36,078 nucleotides of DNA from Candidatus Ghiorseimicrobium undicola (GTDB lineage: Bacteria; Omnitrophota; Gorgyraeia; Ghiorseimicrobiales; Ghiorseimicrobiaceae): the NCBI GenBank assembly GCA_002796125.1, contig PCWA01000111.1, positions 1 through 36,078 on the forward strand, in the 5' to 3' direction. The position numbers and the translations under genes were made by a program. The number at the start of each line of letters is the position of its first letter. Positions within the stretch are counted from its first letter, which is position 1. Below are positions 4,905 through 8,663 of the stretch, one piece after another. The notes under the pieces are model-generated. The model was not told where the DNA came from, made no database searches, and saw only the letters and a list, made by a program, of their open reading frames with translations.

Positions 4905-4983
4905 CGCTAACATTTGAGCTCAGGCAGAGGAAACCGTACCCGATAAGGCGCGGATTCCGATTGCCTGGAGCGAATTGTTATAT
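4905..4983 (-). repeat. attC5 recombination site (end of array)
   Basis: Read on the - strand, the site runs from ATATAAC (4977-4983) to GTTAGCG (4905-4911), 79 bases long. The inner arms GCTCCAGGCA and TGCCTGAGC pair except for one extra C, the extrahelical base typical of attC. It lies 13 bases after the stop of the membrane-protein cassette gene. No further attC follows, so this closes the recognisable array. Confidence 0.85.
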
Positions 4984-4995
4984 GTTTTTATATTA

Positions 4996-5433
4996 TTACT
5001 TAAATTTTTCTGTTATGTTTTTACTGGTAATTAAATAAAGCACTAAAATTTCTACAGCTAATATGATATAGCCTGGAATCATGCTAAATTTTACGACAAG
5101 TGCTCCTTCCGGTATAGTAATGGGTTTATTCATGGTAAAACATGCATGCCAATAATTACATATACCAAATAATCTAAAACAAATATCTATTACTAGAAAA
5201 CTCAGAATAATTATTCTTCCCCAGTTTTTTAATAATATAAAGAATATTCCGCCAATAACAAGCCATAGTAGAAGCAAGGGATATGCGATCATTAAAATAG
5301 TTAGGAATATCCCAGATGATTGGATAGTTCCAGATAAATTTTTTAAGCCGTATATTAATAAGGGAGACTGGCGAAATAATTCCCATAGGCCATATAAACA
5401 TACAGAAATTCCAATTATTTTTATTTTATTCAT
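4996..5433 (-). CDS. Cassette 5: four-helix membrane protein, unknown function
   Basis: I do not recognise this 145-residue protein. It has about four hydrophobic segments: residues 5-25, 41-68, 73-92 and 118-136. A short polar loop with NKPITIPEGALV lies before the last one. The stop codon sits 13 bases before attC5, and ATG 5433 is 21 bases from the 5' core site GTTATAG (5445-5451). The Shine-Dalgarno AGGAAAG directly follows and overlaps that core site, which supports this start. The gene is markedly AT-rich compared with cassette 4 next to it, as expected for cassettes of separate origin. Orphan membrane proteins are frequent integron cargo; no function can be inferred. Confidence 0.75.
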   Translation of the reverse strand: MNKIKIIGISVCLYGLWELFRQSPLLIYGLKNLSGTIQSSGIFLTILMIAYPLLLLWLVIGGIFFILLKNWGRIIILSFLVIDICFRLFGICNYWHACFTMNKPITIPEGALVVKFSMIPGYIILAVEILVLYLITSKNITEKFK

Positions 5434-5444
5434 TTTTATCTTTC

Positions 5445-5524
5445 CTATAACGCTCTAGATCAGCGGTATTTTCCTGTGGCTATTTTTGCCGCAGGTAAAC
5501 ATCCGCTGGATCTTTTTGTTAGCC
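5445..5524 (-). repeat. attC4 recombination site
   Basis: On the - strand it runs from GGCTAAC (5518-5524) to GTTATAG (5445-5451), 80 bases. The inner arms GATCCAGCGG and CCGCTGATC pair except for one extra C in the left arm. The TAA within GGCTAAC is the stop codon of the HEAT-protein gene, so gene and site overlap. Confidence 0.88.
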
Positions 5525-6148
5525 ATCTTTCTTGTTTATAAATTTGCTTGCCAGCTTGTAAGTCTGTGCAACGCGCTTGTTTGACGTATCCCACAGCTGG
5601 AGCTCGTTCTTTATTAATTCTTTGTGCTTCTTGCTTATGTCTCGTAACGAATTCCCGACAGACTTTCTAACGTACGCACTCTCATCATTTCTAAGCTGGC
5701 TCAACAATTGAACTGCAATTTCGGGGTGATCTCGAAAATATGGGCGACCAGTCCAAATCCGCAGACCTTCCGTGACTGAACGCCTCACGTTTGGCGTGGA
5801 ATCTGATATCCATTCCTTTATCACCGGCAGTGATTGCTCATAGCCATTGTCGAAACAATATCTGTCAAAGGCTTTTGCTAATATTTCTTGAACCCGCCAA
5901 TCATCATCCAGGCTCACGCGGTCTTTTAGGAACTTGAGACTTTCGTTTGACTGGGCGGCTAATCGGCCAAGGATAAAAGTTGCCAGTGAACGTACTTGAT
6001 ATGCTTCCGAAGTGAACAACCGTTCGGCCACACTAAGACTCTCATTCATAGACCGACCAGCAACGAATTCGTCTGCTGCGCTTTGAATATTCAAAAAGCC
6101 ATGTTGTGTCTCTTGAACTCTTTGTATTAATTTTTCTATTTTATCCAT
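5519..6148 (-). CDS. Cassette 4: HEAT-repeat, DNA-alkylation-repair-like protein
   Basis: A 209-residue, wholly alpha-helical protein with repeating helix pairs typical of HEAT repeats. The clearest are SLATFILGRLAAQ (about residue 53), WISDSTPNVRRSVTEGLRIW (about 112) and SAYVRKSVGNSLRDISK (about 157). The VRRSVTEG-RIWTGRPYF and VRKSVGN-LRDISK patterns resemble the AlkC/AlkD superfamily of DNA glycosylases, which remove N3- and N7-alkylated purines. I cannot confirm the AlkD-type catalytic Asp and Trp residues, so it may be a binding protein only. It starts at ATG 6148, 30 bases inside the cassette, with AGGG at 6152-6155 as a weak ribosome site. Its stop is embedded in attC4. Composition is closer to 45-50 percent GC, richer than its cassette neighbours. 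Confidence 0.72.
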   Translation of the reverse strand: MDKIEKLIQRVQETQHGFLNIQSAADEFVAGRSMNESLSVAERLFTSEAYQVRSLATFILGRLAAQSNESLKFLKDRVSLDDDWRVQEILAKAFDRYCFDNGYEQSLPVIKEWISDSTPNVRRSVTEGLRIWTGRPYFRDHPEIAVQLLSQLRNDESAYVRKSVGNSLRDISKKHKELIKNELQLWDTSNKRVAQTYKLASKFINKKDG

Positions 6149-6171
6149 CTAGCCCTAATGCCTTATCTTAT

Positions 6172-6267
6172 GGCTAACGCGGAGCTAAGCGAACCGCGCG
6201 TAAAGGGCGCGAAAATCTTTTTTCGCGGCATATTGGCGCGCGGTTTCGCTTGAGCGATTTGTTGGGC
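6172..6267 (-). repeat. attC3 recombination site
   Basis: On the - strand it runs from GCCCAAC (6261-6267, a perfect RYYYAAC) to GTTAGCC (6172-6178), 96 bases. The arms GCTCAAGCGAAACCGCGCG and CGCGCGGTTCGCTTAGC pair with two extra unpaired bases in the left arm, the extrahelical hallmark. An inner hairpin CGCGAAAA/TTTTCGCG is also present. It ends the second ORF-less cassette. Confidence 0.85.
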
Positions 6268-6352
6268 GGCGCTGCGCCCAAAGCTGTTATTTATACAGCG
6301 CTTGCCAATCTTTATAGCTTTGTTATTTTTTTTATATCTCTACCCGGCCCAA
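6178..6352 (-). other. Cassette 3: ORF-less integron cassette
   Basis: This unit of about 175 bases lies between core sites GTTGGGC (6347-6353) and GTTAGCC (6172-6178). It contains attC3 plus some 80 bases of AT-rich sequence with no reading frame of useful length. Its own ends, GTTGGGC and GCCCAAC, are perfectly complementary, as for a true circularisable cassette. A CTGTTATTTATACAG near-palindrome lies at 6284-6298. ORF-less cassettes in other integrons can carry promoters or small RNAs; none is evident here. Confidence 0.65.
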
Positions 6353-6391
6353 CAGAGCGCGAAGAAGCGAATGCTTAGCTCCGCGTTGCGC
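6347..6391 (-). repeat. attC2 recombination site (short)
   Basis: On the - strand it runs from GCGCAAC (6385-6391) to GTTGGGC (6347-6353, a perfect GTTRRRY), only 45 bases. The pairing is irregular: GAGC/GCTC and AAGC/GCTT with an asymmetric bulge. It is the weakest of the five sites. Its support comes from the matching ends of cassettes 2 and 3 on each side. Confidence 0.55.
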
Positions 6392-6472
6392 GGCGCCGAA
6401 CGGTGATTTATTAATTATTTTATTTAACCCGCTTTGGTTCGTCTTAAACGGCCGCGGCGCTGCGCCGCGCAA
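6353..6472 (-). other. Cassette 2: ORF-less integron cassette
   Basis: This unit of about 120 bases lies between the core sites at 6467-6473 and 6347-6353. It holds attC2 and about 75 bases without an ORF. Its ends carry a longer inverted match, GTTGCGCGGCGC against GGCGCCGCGCAAC. A GGCGC-T-GCGCC palindrome (6456-6466) abuts attC1 and is repeated exactly at 6268-6278, abutting attC3. The two ORF-less cassettes may share ancestry. Confidence 0.6.
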
Positions 6473-6528
6473 CATTCAAGCTCACCGGCAAAACCGCAGG
6501 TTTTGTCCGGTGGAGCGCGTTGTTAGAA
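6467..6528 (-). repeat. attC1 recombination site
   Basis: On the - strand it runs from TTCTAAC (6522-6528) to GTTGCGC (6467-6473), 62 bases. The arms GCTCCACCGG and CCGGTGAGC pair with one extra C, and a central hairpin CAAAACC/GGTTTTG is perfect. It follows the stop of the first cassette gene by eight bases. Confidence 0.88.
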
Positions 6529-6535
6529 TATTATT

Positions 6536-7168
6536 TTATTCTTTGAAAAACTCTGGTCGCCATGATTCTTTCATTAATTTTTCTCTAATACTTTTTGTCT
6601 CGTTATGCGAAATAGTCTTTTCTTTTTCAAGTCCACATAATAACAACATGAATGCGGGATCATTTTTTGCTTCCTTAATAAAATAAGAATATTCTTTTTC
6701 AGTGCCCATGATAAATATATTGTCTTTTGTTCCGCTTTGAATAATGAGGGGAAGATATTCATGGTCTCTGGGGAAATCTTTCTGGTGCACTGAGCCATCG
6801 CTATGAAGAATGATAAAACTATTATTAATATCCCATTGGCCTTTTTCGTAAATAGTGAGAGGTAGTATATCTGCCCATTTAAGATATATGTATGTGTTAT
6901 CCGGAAAAAGATATAGTTCTGAACCAGACAATGCCCCTCCCCTTCGCTCCTTCATGGAAGGACCTAATGTGCAGTAATGACCGGAAATGTTTTCAACATT
7001 TAGCGATGAAGACGAAACTTGTTTTACAGTGGGTAAAAGGCTTTTAATTCCCGAAAACATTTTTGTAGCTGATTTTAAATTCGTATCAGGGTTTACTGTT
7101 TCGGTATACCCATATGCAATAAAGGTAATTAAGTAAATTAATAAAATAGCGAATATATTATTTTTCAT
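6536..7168 (-). CDS. Cassette 1: secreted protein of unknown function
   Basis: I do not recognise this 210-residue protein. Residues 1-20 form a signal peptide (NNIFAILLIYLITFIAYG), so it is exported. The mature part has a pattern ISGHYCTLGP...GSELYLFPDNTYIYLKW...GQWDI, like small beta-barrel or lipocalin-like proteins in which a growing strand array surrounds a ligand. That is only a resemblance. ATG 7168 is 20 bases from the attI-proximal core site GTTAGAA. The Shine-Dalgarno GAAGGAG overlaps that core site, which fixes the start. It is the cassette nearest the integrase, so probably the most recently acquired and the best expressed from the Pc-like promoter at 7240-7268. Confidence 0.75.
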   Translation of the reverse strand: MKNNIFAILLIYLITFIAYGYTETVNPDTNLKSATKMFSGIKSLLPTVKQVSSSSLNVENISGHYCTLGPSMKERRGGALSGSELYLFPDNTYIYLKWADILPLTIYEKGQWDINNSFIILHSDGSVHQKDFPRDHEYLPLIIQSGTKDNIFIMGTEKEYSYFIKEAKNDPAFMLLLCGLEKEKTISHNETKSIREKLMKESWRPEFFKE

Positions 7169-7180
7169 TTAATTTTCTCC

Positions 7181-7187
7181 TTCTAAC
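7181..7187 (-). other. attI-proximal core site of the integron
   Basis: TTCTAAC on the + strand (GTTAGAA on the -) marks the junction of the attI platform with cassette 1. It is exactly complementary to the 3' core of the same cassette (TTCTAAC within attC1). The attI region proper should lie on the intI side, about 7188-7260. I cannot define its integrase-binding repeats by eye. Confidence 0.75.
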
Positions 7188-7239
7188 AATTAATATGCGA
7201 ACTTCTGGTTTTATGGTTATCTTGCCCTGCTACGGTTTG

Positions 7240-7268
7240 AATATAGCATAATTTTTACGCCTTAACAA
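7240..7268 (-). promoter_or_regulatory. Candidate cassette promoter Pc
   Basis: On the - strand, TTGTTA (7263-7268) and TATATT (7240-7245) are separated by exactly 17 bases, a good sigma70-type promoter pointing into the cassette array. Transcription would start near 7233, about 65 bases before the first cassette start codon. Its place between intI and the first cassette is where Pc is expected. Confidence 0.65.
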
Positions 7269-7278
7269 TAAAAATCCC

Positions 7279-7306
7279 TTGTTTATTTTCGTGATTGCTC
7301 TATAAT
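7279..7306 (+). promoter_or_regulatory. Candidate intI promoter
   Basis: TTGTTT (7279-7284), 16 bases, then a perfect TATAAT (7301-7306), giving a start near 7313 and a 37-base leader to intI. It is divergent from the cassette promoter and about 10 bases away from it, so the two could interfere. A small CGAAGTTCG palindrome follows at about 7318-7326. No canonical LexA box is seen. Confidence 0.6.
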
Positions 7307-7349
7307 AACGAAAAATACGAAGTTCGTTTAAGAAGGGAATTTTGGAAAA

Positions 7350-8663
7350 ATGGAGAAAATTAAGATGTTTGGCGGTGTCTTGCCGGAATTTCAGGAATTT
7401 TTGCTTTCGCGTAAGCTCGCGCCTGAGAAGAGCGTTTCATATTACGCGCGCTGGGTAAGTAAATTCCTTGATTTTAGCAATAATAACAGCAATGAAAAAC
7501 AGGATTTAGCCGCGAAAAAATTCATAACTTATTTAAAGCAATCTGTTTTTGCCGATTGGCAGGTAAAGCAGGCAGAACAGGCATTGGAGCTGTATACCAA
7601 ACAATTTTTGCCGAAGAATGCCGGCGTTGGCGGGAGTAGTTTTTTATCTGCCGAAGGAAGCCGCCTTGAAATCGCCGATATTATAAACAAAGCGAAAGAA
7701 GCGATGCGGCTTAAACATTATTCTTACGCGACAGAGCGTTCTTATATTGGCTGGGTGAAGCGTTTTTACGCTTATCTTAAAGAGGCGGCGAAAAATGGCG
7801 CGGGAGGGAATAGGCTATGCTCAGAAGAGGTGAGAAATTTCTTAAGTTATTTGGCCGTAGAAAAACGGGTTTCATCTTCAACGCAAAATCAGGCTTTTAA
7901 CGCGCTTTTATTTTTATTCCGCGAAGTGCTTAAAATTGAACTTAAAGATTTGGATAATACGGTCAGGGCAAAACGCGGCCAAAAGGTGCCTACGGTATTG
8001 ACGGTTGAAGAGGTAAAATCTTTATTCGGGCAGGCGCAGGGCAAGGCGCGAATCATTATACAATTACTTTACGGCTCAGGGCTCAGGCTTATGGAGTTGG
8101 CGCGCTTGAGGGCGCAGGATATAGATTTTAACTCTAGTACCATATTTGTGCGCGGCGCTAAACAGGATAAAGACAGGACTACTATTCTCCCTGATAAAAT
8201 TAAAGGCGATTTACGCCTGCATCTTGATAAAGTCAAAGAATTGCATATAAAGGACCTTGAGGCAGGGTATGGAGAGGTGTATTTACCGGGCGCGCTTTCC
8301 CGTAAATATCCCAATGCCGCCAAAGAGTGGCGCTGGCAGTATGTTTTTCCTTCGGCGAACCTTTCGGTTGACCCCAGAGGCGGCAAAGTGCGGCGGCACC
8401 ACATAAGCGGCAAAACTATTCAGCAGGCGGTTAAGAAAGCGGCGGACGGGGCGGGAATAGTTAAGCGCGTTTCGGTGCATACCTTGCGGCATAGTTTTGC
8501 CACGCATCTTTTAATGAATGGGGTTAATATCAGGGAAGTGCAGGAGCTTTTGGGGCATAAGAGCGTTGAAACGACGATGATTTATACGCATGTCTTACGG
8601 GATATGAGTAACGCGCCCAAAAGCCCGCTGGACAGCCTTTATTCAAATAAATCCATAGTTTAA
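7350..8663 (+). CDS. intI: Integron integrase IntI with N-terminal extension
   Basis: A tyrosine recombinase that catalyses attI x attC and attC x attC recombination on folded single-stranded attC. The catalytic set is complete: R246 (YGSGLR), K271 or K274, H377 and R380 (VHTLRHSFATHL), H403 (LLGHKS) and nucleophile Y412 (IYTH). The integron-specific insert between boxes II and III is present at about residues 305-350 (GEVYLPGALSRKYPNA, YVFPS, DPRGGKVRRHH); XerC/D lack it. The usual IntI N-terminus (KAKEAMRLKHYSYATERSYIGW) begins only at residue 114. The first 110 residues are extra and contain a second core-binding-like segment (LPEFQEFLLSRKLAPEKSVSYY). At 437 residues it is about 100 longer than IntI1. 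AAGAAGGGA (7330-7338) is the ribosome site. No frameshift is visible, so it is probably active. Confidence 0.95.
   Translation: MEKIKMFGGVLPEFQEFLLSRKLAPEKSVSYYARWVSKFLDFSNNNSNEKQDLAAKKFITYLKQSVFADWQVKQAEQALELYTKQFLPKNAGVGGSSFLSAEGSRLEIADIINKAKEAMRLKHYSYATERSYIGWVKRFYAYLKEAAKNGAGGNRLCSEEVRNFLSYLAVEKRVSSSTQNQAFNALLFLFREVLKIELKDLDNTVRAKRGQKVPTVLTVEEVKSLFGQAQGKARIIIQLLYGSGLRLMELARLRAQDIDFNSSTIFVRGAKQDKDRTTILPDKIKGDLRLHLDKVKELHIKDLEAGYGEVYLPGALSRKYPNAAKEWRWQYVFPSANLSVDPRGGKVRRHHISGKTIQQAVKKAADGAGIVKRVSVHTLRHSFATHLLMNGVNIREVQELLGHKSVETTMIYTHVLRDMSNAPKSPLDSLYSNKSIV

Follow-up and report, generated by a model that had tools for sequence, protein, structure and literature searches.

The locus considered here raises two questions, namely whether an integrase gene and the repeats accompanying it form a genuine integron, and how such an element is organised within its genome. 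The window, by which we mean the whole 36,078-nucleotide stretch of DNA that was analysed, had been predicted from its letters to hold a chromosomal integron in a lineage resembling Omnitrophota, and the original prediction named as checks a covariance search for attC sites, the placement of IntI in a tree and a comparison of arrays in related genomes. The intI open reading frame (7350-8663, plus strand) encodes a long-form protein of 437 aa, which scores 420.6 bits against TIGR02249 (cut-off 265), while in the family search ordinary control genomes gave weak matches, none above the cut-off. As had been claimed, the translation contains the complete catalytic set (R246, K271, H377, R380, H403 and Y412) together with the IntI-specific insert around patch III (KELHIKDL..YPNAAKEWRWQYVFPS; 8235-8354, plus strand), in which K319, W329 and F333 are invariant in an alignment of 64 sequences. 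In the PDB the closest structure by sequence is IntI4 (2a3v, E 2e-74), and the same entry is the closest fold to the AlphaFold model (mean pLDDT 87.5). When 93 integron integrases were placed in a tree, the protein grouped within them, and the XerD of the same host lay far away on a very long branch.

The attC sites were sought with a covariance model (R1) built from 42 pattern-collected sites of other lineages, with the window and its family excluded; these sites were chosen partly for their pairing, so that their covariation is not independent evidence. Four sites were recovered in tandem, all on the minus strand and all with paired R and L boxes and an extrahelical base: that of cassette 1 at 6467-6528 (43.4 bits, E 2.7e-8), of cassette 2 at 6172-6267 (35.3 bits, E 2.7e-6), of cassette 3 at 5445-5524 (51.1 bits, E 3.6e-10) and of cassette 4, at the end of the array, at 4905-4983 (55.6 bits, E 2.9e-11). 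The next-best match in the 36 kb, with filters off, reached 16.7 bits (E 0.095), and the model was checked on the class 3 integron plasmid LC735978, a positive control in which the two cassette attC sites were recovered. A separate pattern scan returned the same four and none besides (shuffles: mean 0.05, maximum 1, n=40), and on folding against shuffles on both strands the four gave z from -3.0 to -5.3. Rfam, on the other hand, matched no integron element. Five attC-like sites had been claimed, the extra unpaired base being ascribed to four; the extra base holds for the four real sites, and the fifth, probably the stretch at 6344-6400, the sole remaining attC-like one, was rejected, since it gave no R1 match even with filters off and folds like its shuffles (z +0.4 and -0.1). 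To the eye that stretch, which lies inside the ORF-less cassette 2, has the look of a damaged and inverted attC. An ordinary Xer or phage recombinase accompanied by chance hairpins is hardly a tenable reading of the locus, for although all tyrosine recombinases have the catalytic domain in common and ordinary genomes do give weak matches in the family search, the score lies far over a cut-off that no control genome reached, the IntI-specific insert is present, the XerD of the same genome is distant, and four attC sites stand against the 0.05 expected.

The four confirmed attC sites delimit four cassettes, one of them without an ORF. They are read from the minus strand, so that intI on the plus strand is divergent from the array, as had been described. 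Cassette 1 (6473-7186, 714 bp) carries an ORF of 210 aa (6536-7168) with a signal-like N terminus, cassette 2 (6178-6472) has no ORF over 47 aa, and cassette 3 (5451-6177) encodes a 209-aa protein (5519-6148) resembling HEAT-repeat and DNA-alkylation-repair proteins (PF08713, E 4.7e-13; PF13646, E 3.8e-12). The 145-aa product of cassette 4 (4911-5450; ORF 4996-5433) appears hydrophobic by eye. The ORFs of cassettes 1 and 4 had no match in Pfam, NCBIfam, PADLOC or PHROGs, and neither PADLOC nor PHROGs gave a lead to cassette function worth keeping.

The array is headed by an attI site (7181-7207, minus strand), which consists of a variable dyad and a core, TATTAATTG^TTA, with the crossover after the G at 7187; the core is conserved at the intI loci of relatives, and the crossover point is revealed by a second copy elsewhere in the same genome. 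On contig C107 (L135 3105-4228) 161 bp correspond to window positions 7185-7345 at 98.8% identity, beside mnmG (named by eye from the sequence) and with no integrase, and among the 115 contigs of this draft the attI stretch occurs in exactly these two copies. The attI of C107 is joined exactly at G^TT to a copy of the cassette at window positions 6174-6474 (96% identity), giving the order attI-G^TT-cassette 2, where the window has attI-G^[714 bp]TT-cassette 2. Since cassette 1 is missing from the C107 junction, it has been inserted, relative to that copy, precisely at the crossover point of attI, and would be the footprint, a single one, expected from recombination of the IntI type. The C107 array holds one further cassette and falls within the definition of a CALIN (at least two attC sites, here at L135 3468-3563 and 4152-4228, and no intI nearby); a search of the 8 kb around it found no intI remnant. 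Copying probably proceeded from the intI locus to C107, because the intI spacer of a relative (G001) is related to the copied stretch and the regions upstream of mnmG in other family members are not. Ordinary duplication could have produced both attI-cassette copies, in which case IntI would account solely for the subsequent entry of cassette 1. The mnmG-apgM interval is variable in the family, with attC in G003 (L138), unrelated genes in G001 (L145) and, in G002 (L146), an attC-like remnant seen by eye that the covariance model does not support.

Taken together, the complete IntI, the four attC sites with their extrahelical base, the conserved attI core and the one insertion footprint indicate that the locus is very probably a sedentary integron on an Omnitrophota chromosome. 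Expressed divergently from the array, IntI would join bottom-strand attC in its folded form to double-stranded attI, at G^TT, such that new cassettes would enter first, adjoining the cassette promoter Pc, which may drive them. The integrase may be active at present, although it may also be decayed or silent. Like the sedentary integrons of the Vibrio/Xanthomonas type, the locus combines a divergent intI, an attI and attC sites with an extrahelical base, its cassettes are mostly of unknown function and its chromosomal position is fixed in relatives. It departs from them in its small array of four cassettes and its Omnitrophota host; its IntI is extended N-terminally by some 110 aa, and its genome holds a further attI platform that lacks intI. 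What the two copies offer is a natural within-genome comparison displaying cassette insertion at attI.

Two candidate promoters can be proposed between attI and intI. A putative intI promoter, TTGTTT-16-TATAAT (7279-7306, plus strand), was picked by eye and not listed by the scanner, and a candidate Pc, TTGTTA-17-TATATT (7240-7268, minus strand), points at the cassettes; in G001 and G003 a counterpart of equal spacing was read ahead of attI. The promoter scan found 2 promoter-like sites here against 1.2 in shuffles, and when intI-adjacent regions were pooled their promoter scores exceeded those of shuffles (p 0.001). At the intI promoter lies a palindrome, ACGAASTTCGT (7317-7327), of which a similar imperfect copy adjoins attI. 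Control of intI by LexA and the SOS response is common, though not universal. The palindrome was considered as a LexA box and rejected: its one other occurrence in the genome is in the second attI copy. A complete LexA was not found in the draft genome, the sole LexA-like match being an 80-aa ORF with a LexA-type DNA-binding domain and no peptidase domain (L180 1492-1734).

The additional length of IntI is accounted for by an extra N-terminal domain (7377-7664, plus strand), which hhalign identifies as homologous to the protein's own core-binding (SAM-like) domain: a profile of residues 1-105 aligned with the core-binding profile at probability 94.9 (E 4.6e-8), and shuffled-column controls stayed below 1. 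The helical region of the extension is confidently predicted in the AlphaFold model. The extension is present in the Omnitrophota IntI proteins found, one of which (L010) is shorter, and long-form relatives also occur in Nitrospirota, Desulfobacterota and the PVC phyla; one annotated long form, on a Thiodictyon plasmid (L129), is labelled simply as an integron integrase. IntI4 of Vibrio cholerae and the class 1-3 integrases have the catalytic domain, the core-binding domain and the IntI insert in common with the present protein, but no counterpart of the extra domain, their alignments starting at residue 111-114, and those of the plasmid class 1 and 3 integrases likewise begin downstream of the extension. 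The very long XerD branch makes the root of the tree unsure, and the domain may have been either gained or lost.

The extra domain may provide further contacts with DNA, possibly at the variable dyad that adjoins attI. Upstream of the crossover this dyad varies between genomes, with at least 4 of 5 pairs formed in 11 of the 24, and a dyad-like second copy near the intI promoter is found across genomes (combined p 1e-6, with motif shuffles as the control); in the window itself this copy is weak (8/12, not significant alone). Recognition of the dyad by the N-terminal domain is hypothetical, the support being no more than marginal. A partial Mantel comparison of the two gave p 0.001 at first and 0.012-0.027 once near-duplicates were removed, in an exploratory setting with several comparisons in which a control stretch gave p 0.0135 and the core-binding domain p 0.009.

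The assignment of the host to Omnitrophota was borne out, a genome of the same family but another genus (G001) being likewise Candidatus Omnitrophota. Of 384 genomes sampled across the phylum, 18 had IntI above the cut-off (17 among the 249 good ones), and attC sites were present in 52 of 368. The family sample comprises four genomes including the source, three of which have IntI. In G001 (L108) an intI 75% identical to that of the window lies between the 1076-aa gene and tRNA-Pro, just as here, and the cassettes at this orthologous position are entirely unrelated to those of the window, which is array variation of the kind that the original prediction had proposed to look for in relatives. 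The integron is absent from G002 at that position, where other genes are found, and in G003 intI resides at another locus, its IntI grouping with other families in the tree. A patchy distribution of this kind and the behaviour of G003 are what would be expected had the integron been recently acquired by transfer and not settled in the lineage, yet the same gene order around the G001 intI implies an element at least as old as the split between the two genera, unless the same place was entered twice, and we consider recent transfer improbable. For an integron in a lineage resembling Omnitrophota the original prediction had foreseen an extension of the record. Omnitrophota are indeed missing from the list of integron-bearing phyla in a 2021 review (PMC8618304), and the only open-licence paper we found that names both integrons and Omnitrophota does not connect them (PMC9391474). 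The finding thus places working-looking integrons in a phylum for which no earlier report was found; integrons have by now been described in numerous phyla and also in Archaea (PMC9668308), which makes the extension by itself modest.

The C107 array has counterparts elsewhere in the phylum, arrays without integrase, many of them headed by an attI, that we refer to as satellites. Several start with long copies of their own genome's intI-attI spacer, extending over 159 bp at 99.4% and 47 bp at 97.9% in G122, 155 and 154 bp at 84 and 80% in G221, 108 bp at 89% in G324, 109 bp at 76% in G178 and 74 bp at 81% in G022; contig-edge overlaps in G036 (L160) and G229 (L169) were excluded from these attI copies. 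For a wider survey a position matrix was derived from 24 intI-adjacent attI sites, a locus being called when a site scoring at least 16 preceded its first attC on the same strand, and in 92.6 kb of null DNA, both strands, nothing matched at 11 or more. An attI was found to head 14 of the 23 other attC loci in intI-bearing genomes and 10 of the 20 loci in genomes without a detected intI, proportions to be read in the light of some misses that start at contig edges, of the draft state of the genomes, as a result of which a missing intI may be unassembled, and of training that included the masters of several satellite genomes, so that near-identical copies score by descent. Freer of that overlap are G003, G178 (L158) and the genomes without intI. 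As a separate observation, G050, which is 95% complete, has three attI-headed arrays (L181-L183) and no intI over threshold.

Are such arrays inert relics, integron copies that have lost their intI? One of the G122 satellites (L157) has lost the middle of intI and retains its two ends, so that this satellite at least is an integron that lost its integrase gene; in that of G324 (L166) some 64 bp from the 5' end of intI survive, the attI core of one G221 copy (L163) is degenerate, and attI-headed arrays also occur where no intI was detected. Against a general explanation of this type, most satellites keep the attI core together with the adjoining dyad, five attC sites follow a single satellite attI in G324, and the C107 attI is 98.8% identical to its master and is followed by a further cassette. 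On balance we regard decay into relics as having slightly less than an even chance of being the correct account.

Our inference is instead that one IntI would serve several attI platforms in trans, that of C107 included. In its fullest form, which is speculative and in our estimation unlikely, the Omnitrophota integron would be distributed, a long-form IntI serving scattered chromosomal attI platforms, each capable of cassette capture, with the N-terminal domain reading a genome-specific dyad beside attI and at the intI promoter, such that integrase and attI would constitute a private pair in each genome. Were the platforms indeed served in trans, the view of integrons as having one entry point would need revision, and many CALINs elsewhere might merit a search for a hidden attI.

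Both CALINs and mobilisation in trans are already known ideas; CALINs, like the C107 array and the other satellites, have no nearby intI, and the possibility of mobilising their cassettes in trans has been noted (PMC9668308, PMC12444791). In contrast to CALINs, most of the satellites examined here start with an attI of their own, some of them including an extended copy of the spacer between intI and attI, and we found no account of attI-headed arrays lacking an integrase in the open-licence literature. A parallel exists with the delta-attI type cassettes of mobile integrons, in which attI is likewise out of place, but there short pieces of attI replace attC within an array, whereas here attI heads a separate chromosomal array (PMC12901181). 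The attI2 core described in the same work, AATAAAATGTTRRRY, is similar in form to the attI core of the present locus (PMC12901181).
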